DNA of 64,000 nucleotides, taken from Acidobacteriaceae bacterium. Its GTDB lineage: Bacteria > Acidobacteriota > Terriglobia > Terriglobales > Acidobacteriaceae. The position numbers were made by a program, and so were the translations under genes. The notes under the pieces are model-generated. The model was not told the origin of the DNA and made no database searches. It was given only the letters and a program-made list of their open reading frames with translations. The stretch spans positions 1-64,000 of the forward strand of contig JANXZM010000089.1 of assembly GCA_025355505.1 (NCBI GenBank), given 5' to 3'. This document shows, piece by piece, positions 7,926 to 19,353 of the stretch (its first letter is position 1; each line of letters begins with the position of its first letter).

Positions 7926-8404
7926 GCACAGATATCTCATTTGTCACGCGGTCTCACGAGGAAAACTGGCTTCCCGTTCTCGAACTTGCGGTCGAGGAAG
8001 TTTTCGAGATCATGCTGGGTTGCCGGGTGAGGCCGGCAGCGCAATCCGAACACACGCCGAGCCGGGAGTTCACCGCCATGATCGGTTTGGCCGGGGCGTT
8101 GTGCGGGATTCTGACGGTCTGCTGCAGCGCGAAGACCGCCGGCCATGTTGCCAGGGGCATGTTGGGGGACACAGCCGGTTCGGAAGCAGAGGTAGTGGAC
8201 GCGCTCGGAGAGATATGCAACATGATCGCGGGAAACTTCAAGAACAAGCTGGCAGGCACGGATGAACGCTGCATGTTGAGCGTGCCGAGCGTCATCAGCG
8301 GCGGAGAATACAACTTGCATTCGATGGCGAATGGGAATTCCGTGGAAACGGTCCTGTTGTTTGAGGGCGCACCGATCGCCGTTTGTCTTCAACTGGAAAG
8401 CTGA
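7922..8404 (+). CDS. cheX: CheX-like CheY-P phosphatase
   Basis: This 160-residue protein belongs to the CheC/CheX/FliY phosphatase group, which removes phosphate from CheY. The central helix VVDALGEICNMIAGNFKNKL holds the expected E..N pattern. A glycine-rich strand follows the C-terminal PSVISGGEYN. Only one such helix is clear, as in CheX. It overlaps cheY by four bases, so the two are translationally coupled: the regulator and its phosphatase are made together. CheC-type identity cannot be excluded. Confidence 0.8.
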   Translation: MSTDISFVTRSHEENWLPVLELAVEEVFEIMLGCRVRPAAQSEHTPSREFTAMIGLAGALCGILTVCCSAKTAGHVARGMLGDTAGSEAEVVDALGEICNMIAGNFKNKLAGTDERCMLSVPSVISGGEYNLHSMANGNSVETVLLFEGAPIAVCLQLES

Positions 8405-8612
8405 TCCCAAACCTCGGACCTTCTCAGAAAACTTTGCCGGGTTCGCAGGTTATGCTCGGCAGAGTTTTCCCCGCCCGCGATTTTTAAGACGCTTCCAATG
8501 TTTCCTTGCCTGCTAGCCCTCCCAAGCTGTTCAGAACAAAGTCGTCTGTGAAAACTTTCATTTCTCCGTCGTGGCGATTGGCTTGCTTGCTGTCTAACCA
8601 CAAGGAGCCAAC
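8405..8612 (+). promoter_or_regulatory. cheX-flgF intergenic region with a sigma-54-like site
   Basis: TGGC at 8572-8575 and TTGC at 8583-8586 give GG-N10-GC, the -24/-12 spacing of sigma-54 promoters, with partial agreement to TGGCAC-N5-TTGCA. A start site near 8598 would leave about 15 bases before the flgF GTG. This could drive the rod/ring operon, but no activator site is visible. I see no gene or clear terminator in the rest of the gap. Confidence 0.35.
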
Positions 8613-9362
8613 GTGGACAGCGGATTTTATGCAGCGTGCGCGGGGTTGCGAGCGCAGAGCGAGGCGCTCGAAGTGGCGGCCCACAATCTTGCCAATCTGA
8701 ACACGGCCGGGTTTCGAGGTCAGCAGACAACCTTCCAGTCACTGCTGGCGGTGTCGCGCCCGACGGTCCCAAATGTGCTGAACCTGGCGACAAACAATTT
8801 TGGGGTGATTGAAGGGTCGCGCCTGGATATGACTGCCGGCAATCTGGAAGCGACTGGAAATCAGCTTGATGCGGGGATCGAAGGCGGCGGGTTTTTTGCG
8901 GTTCAGACCGCGGACGGCACCCGCTACACGCGCAACGGAAGCTTTCGGGTATCGAGCATCGGGCAACTGGTGACGGCAGCGGGCGATCCTGTGCTTGGAT
9001 ACCCTGCCCTCGGAGATAAGGCTCGGATTAACGTTCCGGCGGGAGCGGTGGCGATCGCTTCGGATGGAACGCTCTCGGTGAACGGCGCGGTCGCGGGCAG
9101 TATCCGGCTGGTGGAGTTCGCTCCCGGAACCAAGCTCAGCTCCGAGGGTGGCAGCTTGATCGGCGCCCCCGAGGGCAGCGCGAAAGCGGCGCAGCAAACC
9201 ACGCTCCGGCAGGGTTCGCTCGAATCTTCAAACGTGAATTCCATCAGTTCGGTGGTGACGCTGATCGGAGTGCAGCGGCAGGCTGAAATGCTGCAGCGTG
9301 CCATGTCGCTGTTTGACACCGAACTCAACCGCATTGCCAGCACCGACCTGGCAAAAGTCTAG
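8613..9362 (+). CDS. flgF: Flagellar basal-body rod protein FlgF
   Basis: Proximal rod protein of the flagellar basal body, 249 residues. The N-terminal rod motif SGFYAACAGLRAQSEALEVA then HNLANLNTAGFRG is typical, followed by the D1 strand region (GGGFFAVQTADGTRYTRNGSF near residue 91) and a C-terminal helix ending in LNRIASTDLAKV. The GTG at 8613 is preceded by AAGGAG at 8602-8607. FlgF and FlgG are paralogues; this copy is shorter and lies first, as is usual. flgG follows after 23 bases. Confidence 0.9.
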   Translation: MDSGFYAACAGLRAQSEALEVAAHNLANLNTAGFRGQQTTFQSLLAVSRPTVPNVLNLATNNFGVIEGSRLDMTAGNLEATGNQLDAGIEGGGFFAVQTADGTRYTRNGSFRVSSIGQLVTAAGDPVLGYPALGDKARINVPAGAVAIASDGTLSVNGAVAGSIRLVEFAPGTKLSSEGGSLIGAPEGSAKAAQQTTLRQGSLESSNVNSISSVVTLIGVQRQAEMLQRAMSLFDTELNRIASTDLAKV

Positions 9363-9385
9363 TTAGTCAAAGTCCGGGAGGGAAG

Positions 9386-10177
9386 ATGTTTCGAGCACTC
9401 TACACCGCGGCCAGCGGGATGCAGGCGCAACAAACGAATCTGGATACCATTGCCAACAACCTGTCCAACTCCAGCACGGCCGGCTTCCGGAGCCGGCGCA
9501 TGCAGTTCCAGGATCTGATCTACCAGAACATAGTGATGCCGGGCGCGGCTTCCTCCCAGCAAACCACGGTGGCCACCGGTCTGCAGGTTGGACTAGGCAC
9601 GCGCGCTTCAGCGTCCGAAATCATCCAGCTGCAAGGCGACCTGGGTGCGACTGGCAGCCCGCTCGATATGGCCATCGAAGGGCAGGGATTTTTCCAGGTG
9701 CTTCTGCCGACGGGTGAAACCGCCTACACGCGCAGCGGCGCCTTCCATCAGGACGCGCAAGGCAATGTAGTTACTTCGGAGGGGAATCCGCTGCAACCCG
9801 CAATCACGATACCAGCGGGCGCCACCTCGGTCACCATCGCTGCGGACGGCACCGTCTCGGTCACGCTCGCCGGGCAAACCGCGGCGCAGCAAGTCGGCAG
9901 CCTGCAACTCGCGCTGTTTCCAAATCCCGGCGGACTCAACAGTGTCGGCAAGAATCTGTTTCTTGCCACCACCGCTTCGGGCGATCCCGCGGTCGGCACG
10001 CCTGGCGGCACGGATGGGTTGGGACAAATCGAGTAAGGGTATCTGGAACAGTCGAACGTCAGCGTGGTCGATGAGTTTATCAACATGATCGTGGCGCAGC
10101 GTTCCTACGAAGCCAGTTCGCGAGTGGTGCAGGCCGCCGATCAGATGTTTCAGCTGGTCAACAACCTGGGCAAGTAG
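9386..10177 (+). pseudogene. flgG: Distal rod protein FlgG interrupted by an in-frame TAA
   Basis: FlgG forms the distal rod of the flagellum. The N-terminus (MFRALYTAASGMQAQQTNLD, then IANNLSNSSTAGFRSRR) and the D1 region (IEGQGFFQVLLPTGETAYTR) are intact. At 10034-10036, after GTDGLGQIE, a TAA stands where FlgG proteins have Gln. The same frame continues without shift as GYLEQSNVSVVDEFINMIVA then QRSYEASSRVVQAADQM to a TAG at 10175-10177. That is the highly conserved FlgG C-terminus. With the stop read through, the protein has the normal length of 263 residues; without it, 216 residues lacking the C-terminal D0 helix needed for polymerisation. A CAA-to-TAA change, real or a sequencing error, explains it. 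Confidence 0.88.
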
Positions 10178-10202
10178 ATTCCGGGAAAGTGGAGGGGCCT
10201 GA

Positions 10203-10883
10203 GTGATTACGCGATCGATTTTCGCCCGCTGCATATTCGCCGCCGGAATGGTATCGGGCTCGTTGCTCGCGGCCGAGATCTCGACCCAGATTTCGGGCGC
10301 AGAGTCCCCTTCGCCGCTCGGCACGCCTTCCTCTCCGGTGACACGGCAGGAAGTGTGGCAGGCGGTAGTGGCTGAACTCCGGGAGCGAGGGCAGCCGGAA
10401 CGCCAGTTGCCGCGGGTCGAAGACATCGATCTGCCGGTGGCTCTGCCGGCGCTTGCCGGACGGAAGCTGCGGGTCTTGTCTAGCTGCCGGGACGCCGGCC
10501 CTCGACGCACCCAATTCCGCCTGGAATGCGGCGCGCCCGGACAGTGTCTGCCGTTTCTGGCTTATCTTCGTAATTATGTTCGCGGCCATGTTCGTGACGA
10601 CGTAAATGCGGACCCGATCGCGCCCGCCGCGTCCTGCCGGCTGGCATCGGGGCCGCACCCGGCGCCGGAGGTCTCGCCGAAACCAGCGCCGCAATCGACG
10701 GTGCGCGCCGGAGACCCGGCGACGTCGGTGTTCGTCGCCGGCCGTTTGCGTCTGACCGCGAGGGTGACTTGTCTCGAGCGTGGCCGCGAAGGCGCAGTCA
10801 TTCGGGTGCGCAGCCAGGATGGACACATTTTCCGGGCGCGGATTTCCGGCCCTGCCCTGCTGGAAGCTTTGCCGCGGCAATAG
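10203..10883 (+). CDS. flgA: Flagellar P-ring assembly chaperone FlgA
   Basis: FlgA is a periplasmic chaperone for FlgI. The 226-residue protein starts with a signal-like segment (IFAAGMVSGSLLA, residues about 11-23). Its C-terminal 50 residues, VRAGDPATSVFVAGRLRLTA then VIRVRSQDGHIFRARISGP, match the SAF-like C-terminal domain of FlgA. The middle is Pro/Ala-rich and poorly conserved. The GTG start at 10203 follows a GGAGGGG at 10191-10197. Position between flgG and flgH supports the call; sequence identity to well-studied FlgA is low. Confidence 0.78.
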   Translation: MITRSIFARCIFAAGMVSGSLLAAEISTQISGAESPSPLGTPSSPVTRQEVWQAVVAELRERGQPERQLPRVEDIDLPVALPALAGRKLRVLSSCRDAGPRRTQFRLECGAPGQCLPFLAYLRNYVRGHVRDDVNADPIAPAASCRLASGPHPAPEVSPKPAPQSTVRAGDPATSVFVAGRLRLTARVTCLERGREGAVIRVRSQDGHIFRARISGPALLEALPRQ

Positions 10884-10909
10884 GCGGCGAGTAAGTCGCT
10901 GTACCTGCT

Positions 10910-10957
10910 AGTAAGTAAGTAAGTAACTAAGTAACTAAGTAAGCAAGCAAGTAAGTA
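10910..10957. repeat. Tetranucleotide (GTAA-type) microsatellite before flgH
   Basis: About a dozen imperfect GTAA/CTAA/GCAA units run from 10910 to 10957, ending a few bases before the GGGAG ribosome binding site of flgH. The tract is non-coding. Change in copy number would alter spacing upstream of flgH rather than a reading frame. Confidence 0.8.
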
Positions 10958-10969
10958 GGGAGATAGCCA

Positions 10970-11650
10970 GTGAAAACGGTGCTGTGTTGCCTGCTGGTGC
11001 TGACAACGGGATGGCTGAACGCGTCGAAGTGGGATTCGCGGAACGACAGTCTGGCAAAATACCTTGCCCGCGTCCAGACGACGCAACCGGCCGCGCCCGC
11101 GCTCTCGCTTGGAAGCGTTTGGGTGGACTCTGGACGGATGGCCTCTCTCAGCGCCGATTACAAGGCCATGATTGCCGGCGACCTGATCACAATCGTCGTG
11201 GTGCAGGACCTGATCTCGTCGAACGCCGGCGCGGTGAGTACGGGGCGTACGTTCAGCGCCAGTTCAGGAGTGGATTCGCTGCCCGGCAAACTCAAGGTTG
11301 GAGGGGCCGCGAACCTGCTCGGGCTGCACTCGGCCGAGACCTTGTCCGGCAAAGGGCAGGCTTCTTCGACTACCAGCGTGACCACAACGCTGGCGGGCCG
11401 AGTGGTCGCGGTTCTTTCCAGCGGCAACCTGGTGGTCGAAGCCGAGCGCATCATCAATATGAACCACGAGAAGCAGAACATCATTTTGCGCGGGGTGGTG
11501 CGCCGGGGCGATATCGGGCCAAACAACACGGTCGCTTCGAACACCATCGGCGATCTGGAACTGGAGATCAAGGGCAAAGGCGTGATCTCGGACGGGGTGC
11601 GGCCGCCGCATCCGATACTGCGCGCCATCCTGCGTATTTTAAATTTCTAG
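10970..11650 (+). CDS. flgH: Flagellar L-ring protein FlgH
   Basis: FlgH builds the L-ring in the outer membrane. The 226-residue protein carries the family core GSVWVDSGRMASLSADYKAM, GDLITIVVVQ, the strand SGNLVVEAERIINMNHEKQN and GVVRRGDIGPNNTVASNTIG. The N-terminus (MKTVLCCLLVLTTGWLNAS) looks like a signal peptide, but it lacks the clear L-x-G-C lipobox of FlgH lipoproteins; the Cys pair at residues 6-7 is too early. Start GTG 10970 has GGGAG at 10958-10962. flgI follows after 13 bases. Confidence 0.92.
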   Translation: MKTVLCCLLVLTTGWLNASKWDSRNDSLAKYLARVQTTQPAAPALSLGSVWVDSGRMASLSADYKAMIAGDLITIVVVQDLISSNAGAVSTGRTFSASSGVDSLPGKLKVGGAANLLGLHSAETLSGKGQASSTTSVTTTLAGRVVAVLSSGNLVVEAERIINMNHEKQNIILRGVVRRGDIGPNNTVASNTIGDLELEIKGKGVISDGVRPPHPILRAILRILNF

Positions 11651-11663
11651 GAGCCTTATCCTC

Positions 11664-12785
11664 ATGAAAGCCGTTTTTGCCGCCGGTCTTCTATTCGTAC
11701 TCGCACCGCTGCTCGCGCTTTCCGGAGCGCTCTCGGCGACGGAACCGGTAGCGATTAAGATCCGCGATCTGACCAATGTCGAAGGCGTCCGGGAAAATCC
11801 TCTGATCGGGTACGGCATGGTGGTTGGGCTTACCCGGACGGGAGACAGCCAGCAGACTGGATTTACGACCCAGACTCTCGCCAACATCATGCAGCGGATG
11901 GGCGCGCAGATTCCGGCGGCGACGGTGCGCGTCAATAATGTGGCATCGGTGTTTGTGACCGCCAGCTTGCCGGCCTTCGCGCGGCCCGGCACCCAATTGG
12001 ATGTGACCGTCTCTTCGATCGGCGACGCCAAGAGTCTCGAAGGCGGCCTGCTCCTGCTTACTCCGCTCTATGGCGCGGACGGGCAGGTCTACGCCGCCGC
12101 CCAGGGCCCGGTCGCGGTGGGAGGTTTTGCCGCCGGCGGCGCGGGCGCGAGCAAGCAGATGAACCACCCAACCATTGGAAGAGTGCCGGCGGGGGGGCGG
12201 GTGGAACGCAGTCTGGCCTTCGATTTCAACCGGCTGGCTCCAGTTTCGCTGCTTTTGCGCGAGCCGGATTTTTCGACGGCGGGTGAAATCTCCGACGCCA
12301 TCAACCGCGAATTCGGACATGCGGTCGCAAGCGCCCGCGACGGCGGACGAGTGGAAGTCGATCCTGGCGCAACCGGCGTGGCCAACCTGACGGCGGTCCT
12401 CGCCAGAATCGAGAACCTTACCGTTGCCGTGCACCGGCGCGCCCGCGTCGTGGTCAACGAACGTACGGGGACCATCGTGATGGGAAACGACGTTCGTCTG
12501 GGAGCGGTATCCATTCTGCACGGCGGATTCTCGGTGCAGATTTCAACCGAGTATTCCGTTTCCCAGCCGGCGCCGCTGTCGGCAGGGAAAACCGAAGTGA
12601 TTGGTCAAACGGAAGTGCAGGCCAAGGACAGCCCGGCGAAGCGCCTTGAAATCGGCGAAGGCGCGAGCATCGACCAGTTGGTCGGCGGATTGCAGAACAT
12701 GGGTGCAACCGCGCGGGACGTAATCTCGATTCTGCAGGCGATCAAAGCAGCCGGGGCGCTCGATGCCGACCTGGAGGTGATCTGA
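11664..12785 (+). CDS. flgI: Flagellar P-ring protein FlgI
   Basis: FlgI forms the periplasmic P-ring around the rod. It has 373 residues with a cleavable signal peptide (FAAGLLFVLAPLLALSGALSA). The mature start is IRDLTNVEGVRENPLIGYGM followed by VVGLTRTGDSQQTGFTTQTL, the classic FlgI N-terminus. The segment VNNVASVFVTASLPAFARPG and the C-terminal EGASIDQLVGGLQNMGATAR are also typical. No break is seen. It sits between flgH and the rod-binding gene in the expected order. Confidence 0.96.
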   Translation: MKAVFAAGLLFVLAPLLALSGALSATEPVAIKIRDLTNVEGVRENPLIGYGMVVGLTRTGDSQQTGFTTQTLANIMQRMGAQIPAATVRVNNVASVFVTASLPAFARPGTQLDVTVSSIGDAKSLEGGLLLLTPLYGADGQVYAAAQGPVAVGGFAAGGAGASKQMNHPTIGRVPAGGRVERSLAFDFNRLAPVSLLLREPDFSTAGEISDAINREFGHAVASARDGGRVEVDPGATGVANLTAVLARIENLTVAVHRRARVVVNERTGTIVMGNDVRLGAVSILHGGFSVQISTEYSVSQPAPLSAGKTEVIGQTEVQAKDSPAKRLEIGEGASIDQLVGGLQNMGATARDVISILQAIKAAGALDADLEVI

Positions 12786-12819
12786 TGGCAGGTGCTTGGT
12801 TGATGCTGGAGGCAATCTC

Positions 12820-13140
12820 ATGAACTTTCCGCTTTCGGCCAGTGGGAGTCGCATGACCACGGCCAACTCTCCGGTGGTAAAACCGGTCGCGAAAAATGCA
12901 GTCGCGAAAAATGAAAAAGCGGCGCGGGACTTTGAATCCCTGCTGCTCACGCCGCTGCTCGACGCCCTGCAGAAGACGTTTGCCGGGACCTCCGAGGATG
13001 CCAACAGCCCCGGGGCGAGCGATTATCGCCTGATGGGTACCGAGGCGCTGGCGCAATCGATCGCGGCCCGGGGTGGGATTGGCATCGCGCAGCTCATCCT
13101 GCGCCATTTGCAGCCACCAAAGGTATCGGGTGGAGGCTGA
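12820..13140 (+). CDS. flgJ: FlgJ-type rod-binding protein (no muramidase domain)
   Basis: This 106-residue protein corresponds to the N-terminal rod-binding domain of FlgJ: ARDFESLLLTPLLDALQKTF then DYRLMGTEALAQSIAARGGI and AQLILRHL. The glucosaminidase half found in enterobacterial FlgJ is absent, as in many other phyla, so a separate enzyme must open peptidoglycan. I chose ATG 12820 with GGAGG at 12808-12812; a TTG at 12796 in the same frame is less likely. It follows flgI directly. Confidence 0.85.
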   Translation: MNFPLSASGSRMTTANSPVVKPVAKNAVAKNEKAARDFESLLLTPLLDALQKTFAGTSEDANSPGASDYRLMGTEALAQSIAARGGIGIAQLILRHLQPPKVSGGG

Positions 13141-13161
13141 ACGGGGGTTTGACTCGGGCGC

Positions 13162-13188
13162 TAAAGTTTTTCGCAAGTCTGCCGATCT
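13162..13188 (+). promoter_or_regulatory. Sigma-28-type promoter P1 of flgM
   Basis: TAAAGTTT at 13162-13169, an exact 11-base spacer and GCCGATCT at 13181-13188. The -35 is identical to the enterobacterial FliA consensus and the -10 agrees in six of eight bases. It lies in the 146-base gap before flgM. Confidence 0.75.
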
Positions 13189-13230
13189 TTGAATTGACCC
13201 GCGATACGTTTGCGGACGAGATACCCACAT

Positions 13231-13257
13231 TAAGGTTTGCTAAGAATCTGCCGATAC
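13231..13257 (+). promoter_or_regulatory. Sigma-28-type promoter P2 of flgM
   Basis: TAAGGTTT at 13231-13238, 11 bases, GCCGATAC at 13250-13257. It is the second such element, 69 bases after P1 and 30 bases before the flgM ATG. Tandem sites suggest strong class-3 expression of the anti-sigma factor, with feedback on FliA. Confidence 0.72.
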
Positions 13258-13286
13258 AAAAGGCAGGACGGGATTGGAGGAATTTT

Positions 13287-13589
13287 ATGAGAGTCGATTT
13301 CACAACGTTGGGACTGGATCCACCGGAAAAAGGCACGACGGGCCGCGCCGGGAAGACAGCGGACGCGGGCACTGGGGCGAACCGCGCTTCGGGGCTGGAC
13401 CGAACCCGCTTCTCGTTCGATCAGACGCGGGTGCAGTCGCTCGAAGCCCAGGTTCTGGCGCAGCCTGAAATTCGCCAGGCCAAGGTCGAATCGCTGCAGC
13501 AGGCGATCGGCAAAGGCGAATATTCGGTTTCTGCCAGCCGGGTGGCGGATGCGCTGGTGAACGAACTGAGTAGCGGAACCCAGGGCTAG
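13287..13589 (+). CDS. flgM: Anti-sigma-28 factor FlgM
   Basis: FlgM binds and inhibits FliA until the hook is finished and is then exported. The 100-residue protein has a disordered Gly/Thr/Ala-rich N-terminal half and the conserved C-terminal helix region VQSLEAQVLAQPEIRQAKVE then SLQQAIGKGEYSVSASRVAD and ALVNEL. ATG 13287 is supported by GGAGG at 13276-13280. The open frame continues 46 codons upstream, but that would cover two sigma-28-type promoters, so the longer start is rejected. Confidence 0.88.
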   Translation: MRVDFTTLGLDPPEKGTTGRAGKTADAGTGANRASGLDRTRFSFDQTRVQSLEAQVLAQPEIRQAKVESLQQAIGKGEYSVSASRVADALVNELSSGTQG

Positions 13590-13624
13590 CGAAGTGAGCC
13601 GGAAGGGGAACTCTGGAGTGAATT

Positions 13625-13813
13625 ATGGATCCGTTGATCACAAACGCGATCGATCCGGCGCTGCTGAGGGTGCTGGAGAAGCGGGGCCAGGAACGCGACC
13701 CCGCGGCCCGGCGCAAGCGTCCGGCTGTGCCCGAGAAACCGGTCGAAGCAGAAGAACTTGAACAAGAGCCGGGTCCCAACACTCCGAAGCACGCACTGGA
13801 TGACTTGGCGTGA
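13625..13813 (+). CDS. Small hypothetical protein between flgM and flgN
   Basis: This 62-residue protein has an N-terminal amphipathic helix (ITNAIDPALLRVLEKRGQER) and a Pro/Glu-rich linker (PEKPVEAEELEQEPGPN). The C-terminal HALDDLA is acidic. A GGAGTG at 13614-13619 precedes the ATG. It is in the same orientation as the flagellar genes with short gaps, and its length and composition suggest a small export-apparatus partner or chaperone, but no family is recognised. Coding status rests on the ribosome binding site, position and codon pattern. Confidence 0.55.
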   Translation: MDPLITNAIDPALLRVLEKRGQERDPAARRKRPAVPEKPVEAEELEQEPGPNTPKHALDDLA

Positions 13814-13823
13814 TCGTGGCGAA

Positions 13824-13871
13824 GATTTGGACTGACGAAGATTTTGGTCTGACGATTTGGACTGACGAAGA
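13824..13871. repeat. Three imperfect tandem copies of a 15-16 bp unit
   Basis: GATTTGGACTGACGAAGA occurs at 13824-13841 and 13854-13871, with a variant copy (GATTTTGGTCTGACG) between. The repeat fills the gap just before flgN, ending 11 bases before its ATG. Confidence 0.7.
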
Positions 13872-13882
13872 GATTCCCTGTT

Positions 13883-14371
13883 ATGGATAATATCGACACA
13901 CCGCTTCCAGAACTGAGCAAGCTGATCGAGCAGCGGCTCGCGATGTTGCGCAGCCTGGCGGAGAGTCTGGAGTTCAGCAGCCTGGCGCTAGGGAAAAACG
14001 ACGCGGAAGCGATCGCGCGCGGGGCGGCGCATCAGGCAGAACTTTGCCGGCAATGGAGCTGTCTCGAAGACCAGCTTCGTCGAGAAGCTGGCCGGCGTTT
14101 GGCGCCGCCATCGGCGGGCGCATCCGGCGATTCCCCGGAAGCCGAGCACTCCGCGCGGCTGCAAGCGGAGTGGGAGACGCTTGGAGCTCGGATCCGTTAT
14201 CTCACGCGAGTGCACTGGTCGCTGCTGCGGCACCTCGAGCGCAGTCTGGCGGTCCTGCATCGCGTGGTCGGCAGCTGCGCAGCCACCTACACGCCCGATC
14301 CCGGATTGCTGAGGACAGAAGTCCGGCATGAAGTCCGGCATAGGACTGGAGAATCATCATGTCGGGTTTGA
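13883..14371 (+). CDS. flgN: FlgN-like flagellar export chaperone
   Basis: FlgN proteins escort FlgK and FlgL to the export gate. The 162-residue protein is almost entirely helical: ELSKLIEQRLAMLRSLAESL at the start, heptad-rich Glu/Arg/Leu segments in the middle and HWSLLRHLERSLAVLHRVVG near residue 130. A basic tail overlaps the flgK start by 13 bases. The family is weakly conserved. The call rests on helical pattern, length and the flgM-flgN-flgK order. Confidence 0.72.
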   Translation: MDNIDTPLPELSKLIEQRLAMLRSLAESLEFSSLALGKNDAEAIARGAAHQAELCRQWSCLEDQLRREAGRRLAPPSAGASGDSPEAEHSARLQAEWETLGARIRYLTRVHWSLLRHLERSLAVLHRVVGSCAATYTPDPGLLRTEVRHEVRHRTGESSCRV

Positions 14372-15726
14372 ACGGGTCCCTTTCGATTGCTTTGAGCGCG
14401 CTCGCGGTGAGCCAGCAGGAGATCGCCACCACTTCCAACAACGTGGCCAACGCGAACACTCCCGGATTCTCCCGGCAGCGTCCGGTGTTGGCGGCAGGCG
14501 ACCCGGTGGTTGTGGGATCGTTGACCTTTGGCACTGGAGTAGTGCTGCAAAAAATCGCGAGCCTGCGGAGCCCCATCCTGGAAATCCAACTGAATCAGGA
14601 AACGCAGCAGCAGAGCAAGCTCGACACCTCGCTCGGGCAACTGCAACAACTTCAAACTCAGTTTGGCAGCGCCAGTTCCGGCATTGGCGCCGACATCAGC
14701 AACTTCTTTAACAGTCTGCAGCAGCTCGCTCCCGACCCGTCGAATCTGGCGTTGCGGCAGAGCGTGCTGACGGCGGCCGGCAAGCTGGCAACCGACTTCA
14801 ACACCATCGCCCACAGCCTTCAGACCCAGAGCGGCAATGTTGACCTGAACGTGGTTCAGTCGGTCAGCGAGGTGAATACGCTGACGGCGCAGATCGCCAG
14901 TGTCAACCGGCAGATCGGCAGTCTCCAGAACGCGCACCTGGACGCAAGCACGCTGGTGGACAGGCAGACCACGCTTATCCGGCAGCTTTCCGGGCTGGTG
15001 GACGTCTCGGTCATTCCGACCGATCAGGGCATCACGCTGGCGACTTCGAATGGGACGACGCTGGTATCGGGATCGCAGAGTTTCGCGCTCTCCACCCAGG
15101 CCGGGACCGGCGGCGTGCAGCACATCCTGGCGGGGACTCAGGACATCACAAGCTCGCTGACGGGTGGGAGTCTGGCCGGCTTGATTCAGATTCGCGACCA
15201 GGAAATTCCGAGTTTTGGGAGCAGTCTCGATCAACTGGCGGCGGGTCTTGCCACCAACCTCAACGCCGCCAATGCGAAGGGCATCGATCTAAATGGCAAC
15301 GCCGGCGGCAATCTATTCGCGCCTCCGCCCGCGGGCGGGGTGGGCGCGGCGGCCGCGTTGAGCGTCAGCATCGCCGATCCGGCGCTGATTGCCGCTAGTT
15401 CCGACGGCAGTACCGGCAGCAACGGGAATCTGGCCGTGCTCTCCGCGGTTGCCGATCAGGCCCTGGCCAATGGGCAGAGACCGATCGATTCCTATTCCAG
15501 CATCGTTTTTCAAGTGGGCAACACTACTTCCAACACCTCCGCCGATGCCAACGCCTCGAGCCTGATTCTGCAACAGTTGCAGGACCAGCGCGGGAGTATT
15601 TCCGGCGTATCGCTCGACGAAGAAGCAGCCAATCTCATCCAGTATCAGACCGCTTATCAGGCTGCTGCCCGCGTCGTCTCCACCGTCAACACCCTGCTTG
15701 ACGTTGCCGTAAACCTTGGAAAGTAG
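14359..15726 (+). CDS. flgK: Hook-associated protein FlgK (HAP1)
   Basis: FlgK joins hook to filament. The N-terminal D0 motif LSIALSALAVSQQEIATTSN then NVANANTPGFSRQRPVL and the C-terminal VSLDEEAANLIQYQTAYQAA with RVVSTVNTLLDVAVNLGK are diagnostic. At 455 residues it is short of the enterobacterial form (about 550), with a reduced middle domain. It starts inside the flgN end, indicating coupling, and flgL follows after 7 bases. Confidence 0.95.
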   Translation: MSGLNGSLSIALSALAVSQQEIATTSNNVANANTPGFSRQRPVLAAGDPVVVGSLTFGTGVVLQKIASLRSPILEIQLNQETQQQSKLDTSLGQLQQLQTQFGSASSGIGADISNFFNSLQQLAPDPSNLALRQSVLTAAGKLATDFNTIAHSLQTQSGNVDLNVVQSVSEVNTLTAQIASVNRQIGSLQNAHLDASTLVDRQTTLIRQLSGLVDVSVIPTDQGITLATSNGTTLVSGSQSFALSTQAGTGGVQHILAGTQDITSSLTGGSLAGLIQIRDQEIPSFGSSLDQLAAGLATNLNAANAKGIDLNGNAGGNLFAPPPAGGVGAAAALSVSIADPALIAASSDGSTGSNGNLAVLSAVADQALANGQRPIDSYSSIVFQVGNTTSNTSADANASSLILQQLQDQRGSISGVSLDEEAANLIQYQTAYQAAARVVSTVNTLLDVAVNLGK

Positions 15727-15733
15727 GTCATTG

Positions 15734-16621
15734 ATGCGCGTGAATCCGAATCCCCTGCCCGACCTGCTGGCGGCACTCAACCAGACAAAGCTGGCAACGC
15801 AACAGGCTTCGATCGAGATTGCGTCCGGCCAAAGCGTGAACCAGCCCTCCGACAATCCGACCGCCGCCGCCCTGCTGGTGGAGAACAACGATCAGGCTAC
15901 GTTCACCGCCGGTTATCTGCAGAGTCTCAATGCGGTTCAGGGCCAACTCTCTACCGCGGATTCGACGCTAAGTTCGGTCGTGACCGCGCTGCAACGAGCC
16001 ATCAGCCTCGGCGTCGAGGGCGGCAATGGCACGCTCTCCGATAGCGACCGGGCCGCAATCGCCAATGAACTGCAAGGCATTCAGAGCCAGCTGGTGTCGC
16101 TGGGCAACACTTCGTACCAGGGCCGCTTCGTATTCGCCGGGACCAATACGGGTACGCCGCCGTACGTGTTGGACAATGCCGCTGCTTCCGGCGTCCGCTA
16201 TGTGGGCAACAATGGCGTCAATCAGGTATCGATTGGCAGTGGATACAAGCTCGCCGTCAACCAGCCCGGATCGCAACTGTTTTCCGCAACCGGCAACGAC
16301 GTTTTTCTTGCCGTCAACAGCCTCATCCAGGCCCTGCAAACCAATACCGGCATTGGTGACGCCGTCACCGCAGTCGGCACCGCTTCCCGCTATATTTCGG
16401 CGCAGCGCGTATTTTATGGCAACGCGTCGAACCAGGCGCAGTCGCAGACCACTTACCTCAATACCGCCAAGCTTCAAATCAGCCAGCAGGCGAATACCCT
16501 CGGCGGCGCGGATCTGGCTGCCGCCGCCACCAGTCTCGCCCAAGCCGGGGTCGATACCCAGGCCACGCTGGCGACCATCAGCAAGCTCTCGCAGAATAAT
16601 CTCTTCAGTTACTTGAAGTAG
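15734..16621 (+). CDS. flgL: Hook-associated protein FlgL (HAP3)
   Basis: FlgL is the second hook-filament junction protein. It has 295 residues from ATG 15734. The flagellin-like N-terminus runs LNQTKLATQQASIEIASGQS with VNQPSDNPTAAALLVEN, then SLNAVQGQLSTADSTLSSVV. The GNTSYQGRFVFAGTNT segment near residue 130 is characteristic of FlgL. The C-terminus QAGVDTQATLATISKLSQNN is typical. A TTG at 15716 is in frame, but it overlaps the flgK end and ATG fits better. It is the last gene of this operon; a strong hairpin follows. Confidence 0.92.
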   Translation: MRVNPNPLPDLLAALNQTKLATQQASIEIASGQSVNQPSDNPTAAALLVENNDQATFTAGYLQSLNAVQGQLSTADSTLSSVVTALQRAISLGVEGGNGTLSDSDRAAIANELQGIQSQLVSLGNTSYQGRFVFAGTNTGTPPYVLDNAAASGVRYVGNNGVNQVSIGSGYKLAVNQPGSQLFSATGNDVFLAVNSLIQALQTNTGIGDAVTAVGTASRYISAQRVFYGNASNQAQSQTTYLNTAKLQISQQANTLGGADLAAAATSLAQAGVDTQATLATISKLSQNNLFSYLK

Positions 16622-17537: not shown

Positions 17538-18968
17538 TTATCCTGTGGACGAGCCGGTATTGGGCGCCGTGTTGTTGGACCTGTTCGACGTGACAGAATA
17601 GTTGCCGTTGAGGGCGCCAATCTCCGCCGTGACCGTCAACAGAAGCGACGGGTAGGCTTCAAGGGTCGCATTGACCTGCGCGTACAGCAGGGTCAATGTC
17701 TTTTGTTGCGCGACCAGGCGATCCTGCAAATTGGCGATCTGGGTGGTTAGAGCCCTCTGCTGAGCCTTGTTTCCGGCAATATCGAGGGTCACGATGCCAT
17801 CGGTTGGATCCGTCAGGCTGAAGAGGTCATTGCTAAAATTGTTGGCAAATCCAGTACCCGAAACATTCGCAAAAAAGTTCTGCACCGCGCTTGGGTTTGA
17901 GGCGAGCACATTGCTGAGCGCGGGGTGGATATCGGTCGCGGTTTGGTTCACCGTCAGAGTTCCATCATTGTTCAAGTCGATGCCCAACGAGGCCAGGTTG
18001 ACCAGTCCGCTGTTTCCCGTAACCGCGTAGGTCACGTTATTGAGCAAACTAGACTGTAATGAGCGCAGGGTGCTGTCGCCACCGAGCGGCCCTTCGGTGT
18101 TGGTGGCTGGATTCACCGTGAACTGGGTGTTGATAATGCCAACCACCGAGTTATAGGCGTTCACGAAGCTGTTAATCGCCGCGGTAGCTTGGGTCGCATC
18201 GGGTCCCACAGTGAGTTGCACTTGCGTTGCCGGCGCGGCGCTGGCCAGATTCAGCGTAACCCCGGCAATCGCTCCGGTTACGGTGTTGGTGGCGCTGCTA
18301 AGCGGTACGCCATCAATAGTCAGAGTTGCGTTGGTTCCGCCAACCGGCGCATTGAAGGTCAGGCTGGTGGTATTGCTGGTAATAGCCAACGCTCCTGGGA
18401 TGCCGCTGGACTGGCTATAAAAGGCCAGTCGCGCCCCGCCCGCATCGGTCACGACGCTGGCCGTGACTCCCAATTTCTGGGTGTTTATGTAACTTGCCAA
18501 TGTGTTGAGAGTGTCATTGCTTCCCGCAGTAATGGAAATGTCATGAGTCACGCCACTCGCCCCGCCGATTTGCAGTTGAATGTCTCCGGGCGAAAATGAT
18601 GTGTTGCCGTCTGTCAGCGGATCGGTATAGAGCGTGCCTGTGGTTGCGAGATTGGACACTACGATCTGATGGATGCCCGGCAAGGCGGAAGTTTGGGCAC
18701 TGGCAGTCAGGATGCCAGTTGCAGAGGAGGTTGCCGACTGCGAAGACAGGGGTCCGTTGGGATTCGCGAGCGAGATCGCCGCCGCCGCTAAATTGGTGAG
18801 GTTGTCGTTAAGCCCTGCCAGCAACCCGGCTTGGGTGGATAGATCCGTTTGCTGGTTCTGCCAGATGGTTAGCGGGCCGGTTTCCCGGCTCAGAATCGCG
18901 TTCACCACCGACTTCACGTCAATGCCATTGCCGTTCAGCAGCGCCGCGGCATTAAAGCTTACTCCCAT
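17538..18968 (-). CDS. fliD: Flagellar hook-associated protein 2 / filament cap FliD
   Basis: FliD caps the filament and folds flagellin at the tip. The N-terminal SGNGIDVKSVV-type segment (GNGIDVKSVVNAILSRETGP) and LTIWQNQQTDLSTQAGLLAG match the family. The middle has the beta-rich FliD_C region (GVTLNLASAAPATQVQLTVG), and the C-terminal helices include LTTQIANLQDRLVAQQKTLT. At 476 residues its length is normal. The start overlaps flaG by 17 bases. The order fliC-flaG-fliD-fliS-fliT is conserved. Confidence 0.93.
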   Translation of the reverse strand: MGVSFNAAALLNGNGIDVKSVVNAILSRETGPLTIWQNQQTDLSTQAGLLAGLNDNLTNLAAAAISLANPNGPLSSQSATSSATGILTASAQTSALPGIHQIVVSNLATTGTLYTDPLTDGNTSFSPGDIQLQIGGASGVTHDISITAGSNDTLNTLASYINTQKLGVTASVVTDAGGARLAFYSQSSGIPGALAITSNTTSLTFNAPVGGTNATLTIDGVPLSSATNTVTGAIAGVTLNLASAAPATQVQLTVGPDATQATAAINSFVNAYNSVVGIINTQFTVNPATNTEGPLGGDSTLRSLQSSLLNNVTYAVTGNSGLVNLASLGIDLNNDGTLTVNQTATDIHPALSNVLASNPSAVQNFFANVSGTGFANNFSNDLFSLTDPTDGIVTLDIAGNKAQQRALTTQIANLQDRLVAQQKTLTLLYAQVNATLEAYPSLLLTVTAEIGALNGNYSVTSNRSNNTAPNTGSSTG

Positions 18969-19353
18969 GGTTGTTCCCCTCTCCCTTCACGACTGCGGCC
19001 GAAGCCGCGTCTGAAGTTGAAACGTTGCCCCTCGAAGCAATTTGTTGCAGCAATTCCAGAGTCTGGTGGATGCCGCGGAGCTGCTCGGCGCTGGGCACTT
19101 GCAGGACCAAGTTCCCCGATTGCTTGTCTAAGACTTGGTAAATCACAATGCCATCTTCTGCCGTATCCAACTGCACTTTGACTTCATGTTCCGGGATTAT
19201 GAGTGGAACGAAAGCACTTTGTGCTGTGGCAATTTCCGTCTTTGGGATATTTCCCGAAGCGGCACTGGGCGGGGGAGACGCAACGTGCACCTTTTTCTCA
19301 GGAGTCTGACGCTCAATCCCAGCCGAACTGGCCTGCACCGGATCAACGGTCAT
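18952..19353 (-). CDS. flaG: FlaG family protein
   Basis: FlaG proteins affect filament length. The 133-residue protein has a disordered, Pro/Ser-rich first half and the FlaG core VKVQLDTAEDGIVIYQVLDK then SGNLVLQVPSAEQLRGIHQT. A short Ser/Ala-rich tail follows. It lies between the flagellin gene and fliD, as in many flagellates, and overlaps fliD. Confidence 0.85.
   Translation of the reverse strand: MTVDPVQASSAGIERQTPEKKVHVASPPPSAASGNIPKTEIATAQSAFVPLIIPEHEVKVQLDTAEDGIVIYQVLDKQSGNLVLQVPSAEQLRGIHQTLELLQQIASRGNVSTSDAASAAVVKGEGNNHGSKL

Follow-up and report, generated by a model that had tools for sequence, protein, structure and literature searches.

Rod and hook of the bacterial flagellum are assembled before the filament (PMC10936197), and a close described counterpart to the locus reported here is a shortened form of the distal rod protein FlgG of Salmonella. 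A model of the Salmonella rod, as described in the passages available from that study, places residues 227–260 in domain D0, with the longer density, which faces the channel, assigned to the C-terminal helix (PMC5288503). A Salmonella FlgG deleted for residues 218–260 is stably made and its export is attenuated, from which the authors infer that the C-terminal region carries an export signal (PMC10936197). That deletion was engineered in the laboratory, and the available passages of the report give attenuated export and no motility result for it. The truncation that we describe in an acidobacterial genome is nearly the same but natural, and ends the protein at the equivalent of Salmonella residue 215, so that two residues more are removed.

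The flgG locus and its in-frame stop

The window, a stretch of 64,000 nucleotides, belongs to contig 76 of a genome of 4.16 Mb that is spread over 119 contigs, with an estimated completeness of 96.17% and contamination of 0.73%. On its forward strand flgG opens with an ATG at 9386. The first 216 codons (9386–10033) encode the N-terminal D0 helix and the D1 domain, matching profile TIGR02488 (FlgG, distal rod protein) at positions 1–212 of 259 with an E value of 1.6e-77, and this head by itself scores 260.6 bits, above the curated cut-off of 252.75. The codon that follows is TAA (10034–10036), and behind it the frame stays open for 46 sense codons (10037–10174) until a TAG at 10175–10177, which is the normal end of flgG and is likewise the final codon in loci L006 and L007. 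The preliminary description had reported a TAA in the flgG frame ahead of the conserved C-terminus, and the stop is indeed seen where it was placed.

The 46 codons beyond the stop match TIGR02488 at profile positions 215–258 (58.6 bits, E 6.4e-16) and the Pfam family PF06429 (Flg_bbr_C) over 44 of its 46 positions (E 9.9e-21), and the tail is therefore not a chance open frame. Together with the sister codons these matches identify it as the C-terminal D0 helix of FlgG, which lies outside the open frame and is encoded only 3' of the TAA. The locus has two of the marks of a nonsense pseudogene, an in-frame stop at a codon that is sense in relatives and the loss of a conserved part of the protein. 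Aligned to the solved FlgG structure 5wrh (chain A), which we take to be that of Salmonella, the stop reads as residue 216 of 260. The product would end after residue 216 and lack the last 47 residues, one at the stop itself and the 46 of the tail. That the part cut off is the terminal helix, as had been proposed, is borne out by the profile matches, the 5wrh alignment, and the rod model alike. Slippage or phase variation at this position was considered and rejected, as the stop lies outside all tandem repeats found in 8000–16000, the nearest being at 10910–10957.

The neighboring genes on the same strand carry no such interruption. Upstream lies flgF (8613–9362), without a stop and scoring 180.5 bits against TIGR02490, above its cut-off of 178.5, while downstream follow a probable flgA (10203–10883; a weak match of 27.1 bits to TIGR03170, below the cut-off of 54.65, and confined to the C-terminal part), the L-ring gene flgH (10970–11650; NF001301, E 1.4e-29, below cut-off), and the P-ring gene flgI (11664–12785; NF003676, E 5e-125, above cut-off). 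Between flgA and flgH, at 10910–10957, stand twelve copies of the 4-base repeat AGTA. This array is absent from the compared stretches of L035 and L039, L037 has a short and different 4-base run, and for L036 and L038 the compared stretch opened no earlier than the first base of flgH. A gene for an IS1595-type transposase (984–1991; PF12762, E 1.8e-36) lies near the left end of the window, and a small frame at 18952–19353 had no match in the flagellar profile scan.

Across the genome, open frames with flagellar matches, many of them scoring under the NCBIfam curated cut-offs, were found for FlgB, FlgC, FlgF, FlgH, FlgI, FlgJ, FlgK, FlgL, and, weakly, FlgA; for FliA, FliD, FliE, FliF, FliG, FliH, FliI, FliL, FliM, FliN, FliP, FliQ, FliR, and FliS; and for FlhA, FlhB, flagellin, a MotA-type protein, and a MotB/MotD-type protein. 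The earlier statement that the other flagellar genes are intact holds for all that were scanned, a set without FlgD, FlgN, FliJ, and FliK.

Relatives, copy number, and the state of the tail

Among named records, the nearest relatives are Terriglobia and Acidobacteriaceae assembled from metagenomes, and several have isolate names that contain bog, fen, or palsa; the genus may be Sulfotelmatobacter, a guess based on a single record (L050) that is more distant. Among 24 genomes of the genus, our own included, 14 full-length copies of flgG occur in 11 other genomes, and none of the 14 is interrupted. The codon at the position of the stop is CAA in eight of these copies and CAG in six, hence glutamine throughout. 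Glutamine also occupies this position in 79 of 80 named loci, many of which come from the same genomes as the genus sample, with serine in the remaining one (L059, titled Armatimonadetes). At family level 148 of 300 genomes, again counting our own, match with an E value no higher than 1e-50, and among the matches listed from these 148 the stop is seen in our genome alone. Within what was examined, the stop is private to this genome, and a single change from a glutamine codon is enough to explain it, as the preliminary description had suggested. That description had also held that a cytosine at 10034 in sister genomes would speak against the stop. The relatives of other species do have the glutamine codon, but a private mutation predicts glutamine there too, and the comparison goes only halfway towards an answer.

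The same description had raised the prospect of a second flgG. A search of the genome with the flgG head returned four matches, namely flgG itself, the adjacent flgF, and, on contig 74, two fragments of flgE. None of them is a second flgG, and within the limits of the assembly the gene is single-copy.

The tail shows little change. Against G001 the 46 codons differ by seven synonymous and no non-synonymous substitutions, and against G018, the closest genome by FlgG (96% identity over the whole protein), by eight synonymous and one non-synonymous codon differences. The claim that the codons behind the stop match the FlgG C-terminus exactly is consequently correct for G001, where all 46 residues are identical, and is off by one residue for G018. 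By a crude simple parsimony, the changes on our own lineage number 19 synonymous and three non-synonymous in the head, and two synonymous and none non-synonymous in the tail, the latter being too few in 138 bases to tell of selection behind the stop. The undecayed tail may mean that the stop is recent, that it is not real, or that the tail is still used, readings that 138 bases cannot separate. A clean tail does fit a young stop.

Mutation, consensus error, or read-through

How unusual such a stop is can be judged against the rest of the genome. A codon-usage scan for coding potential past stops, over 631,351 bases, returned 54 candidate stop-spanning pairs. When these were read through, flgG alone struck the eye as a single interrupted gene, the others resembling neighboring genes or antisense frames; general gene decay or poor assembly was rejected on the strength of this judgment by eye. 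Comparison with sister proteins, in which 351,351 bases were searched and 46,687 were covered in real frame, flagged 11 rows. Two of these are flgG, and a third, in L146, is situated upstream of what appears to be the true start; the remaining eight were judged by eye to reflect start regions or antisense frames and were set aside. Over 206,213 bases of G018 and G001, the scan of sisters gave 17 candidates, one of which is really interrupted. This is a galE-like gene for a nucleotide-sugar epimerase in G018, split by a single in-frame TGA (L153:2493–3518; contig 10, 42493–43518), and it follows that single in-frame stops in conserved genes are not peculiar to the flgG locus. The galE-like and flgG stops alike may be mutations or consensus errors.

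We consider it probable that the TAA arose through a recent nonsense mutation, private to this genome, in the one flgG copy identified. On this account a recent mutation would end translation of FlgG after residue 216, and the truncated distal rod protein would lack the C-terminal D0 helix, whose Salmonella counterpart faces the channel and is associated with a C-terminal export signal. Going by the known order of assembly, the distal rod, and with it hook and filament, would be expected to be missing, and the cell would not swim, with the remaining flagellar genes that were tested still whole. What we observed is a stop that occurs nowhere else in the sample, in a gene with one copy in the assembly, together with the nature of the missing part and the undamaged tail; that the stop exists in the organism and has this phenotype we infer. 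Weighing against a mutation is the fact that errors of consensus or of strain mixing, in an assembly from a metagenome, would give an identical picture. No stop was seen inside the other flagellar genes scanned, nothing else in the genome points to relaxed selection on motility, and genome incompleteness confounds the patchiness of flagellar genes seen across the genus. An error of assembly or consensus, or a minority allele carried into the consensus of mixed strains, with the flgG of the organism whole, is an account that we treat as possible while not favoring it. It gains from the fragmentation of the genome into its 119 contigs and from the 23 best-matching named records (L035–L057) all being metagenome-assembled genomes; the flgG gene is the sole interrupted gene to stand out by eye in 631 kb, the absence of stops from the other scanned flagellar genes and the undecayed tail suit an error, and the galE-like gene shows that single stops do occur in these assemblies. 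Nothing positive points to an error at this site, however, where the frame is kept and the order flgF–flgG–flgI is common to our genome, G018, and G001.

A further account is that the TAA is read through or suppressed, by programmed read-through, a suppressor tRNA, or a reassigned codon, so that some full-length FlgG is made. The conserved tail would suit this, but it is equally expected under a young stop, and the stop is found in no relative examined (within the family, among the matches listed). The tRNA set found in the genome is incomplete, with none labelled tryptophan or isoleucine among 41, and a suppressor could be missed; still, of these 41 tRNA matches with assigned anticodons, none has an anticodon that reads a stop. 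When 58 gene ends were compared with those of sisters, a stop lay within six codons of the sister's end in 41 and none within six codons in 17, and TAA is the stop at five of the 41, including those of fliF, fliL, and flhB. Across 631 kb, the scored open frames that reach a stop inside their stretch number 668, of which 157 end in TAA, a count that includes the flgG head and leaves antisense frames unfiltered. TAA is a working terminator in this genome. Recoding of TAA genome-wide was rejected, as the codon ends conserved genes and inspection of the same 631 kb by eye brought up no further interrupted gene. We therefore regard read-through or suppression, which the preliminary description had put forward, as unsupported and very unlikely, the suppressor tRNA it had pointed to being absent from the 41 found; the other half of its proposal, that the cell may be non-motile, stands as the natural prediction from the loss of the C-terminal D0 helix. 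A fuller version, which we hold to be very unlikely, has a genuine and widespread stop in the population, with read-through yielding some full-length FlgG; only a fraction of the rods would then be completed, and motility would be limited at the rod. Least probable of all, to the point of being barely credible, is that two pieces of FlgG are made separately, translation restarting within the tail, and function together as a split protein: the tail does contain in-frame GTG and ATG codons, but neither the 14 genus copies nor the listed family matches include a split gene, and an unscored inspection by eye turned up no ribosome-binding site.

Possible flagellar gene loss in the genus and parallels in described systems

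The nonsense mutation that we favor would fall in a genus with a patchy complement of flagellar genes. Seven of the 24 genomes have no match to the FlgG query and five more have FlgE- or FlgF-like matches alone, the query being one that elsewhere also matches FlgE and FlgF. FlgI was found in 14 of the 24, FliF in 10, FlhA in 13 (11 over cut-off), and FliM in 17, none of these over cut-off; by our tally FlgG, FlgI, FlhA, FliF, and FliM occur together in seven genomes, our own included. In G018 (97% complete) FlgG and FlgI are present, and no match was found there to FlhA, FliF, or FliM, nor an FlgE-like match to the FlgG query. The same pattern is shared by G022 (98% complete), both genomes having kept flgF, flgG, and flgI, and their second flagellar cluster has been either lost or not binned. 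On contig 37 of G021 (95% complete) one frame opens as flgF and closes as flgI, the two being fused in frame (L183:10764–11573), with nothing of flgG, flgA, or flgH between the two, and this is either a deletion or a misassembly. Missing contigs can explain part of the patchiness, but not the G021 fusion unless it was misassembled. The patchiness makes loss of the flagellum within the genus plausible, and a broken flagellar gene in our own genome unsurprising.

If the stop is real, it would represent an early step of flagellum loss, with one rod gene broken and the rest of the scanned set open. A single stop in a fragmented assembly without reads should not be taken as a phenotype. A literature search, whose coverage left out most subscription papers, turned up neither this stop nor an account of flagellum loss in the genus.

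Described cases from other bacteria offer the nearest parallels. In Brucella, single-nucleotide changes have likewise produced premature stops in the flagellar clusters, in fliF and flhA of B. melitensis 16M and in fliM of B. ovis; there, according to the available parts of the report, several flagellar genes are broken per genome and flgG is not among them, whereas here a single gene is broken among those scanned (PMC7410920). Premature-stop substitutions are also among the disruptive mutations recovered by experimental evolution of Campylobacter jejuni, under laboratory selection and alongside other events in homopolymer tracts, unlike the stop in our genome, which lies outside the tandem repeats found (PMC7677240). 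In the available passages on the Campylobacter experiment, in which motility was lost, no mutation is reported for a list of genes that includes flgG, and flgG would therefore seem not to be the usual first casualty there, a point that counts against our preferred reading (PMC7677240). We prefer to regard the acidobacterial flgG stop as most likely not a new mechanism: as far as the available parts of these reports go, it is an event of an ordinary kind, with published precedents in other flagellar genes of Brucella and Campylobacter (PMC7410920, PMC7677240).
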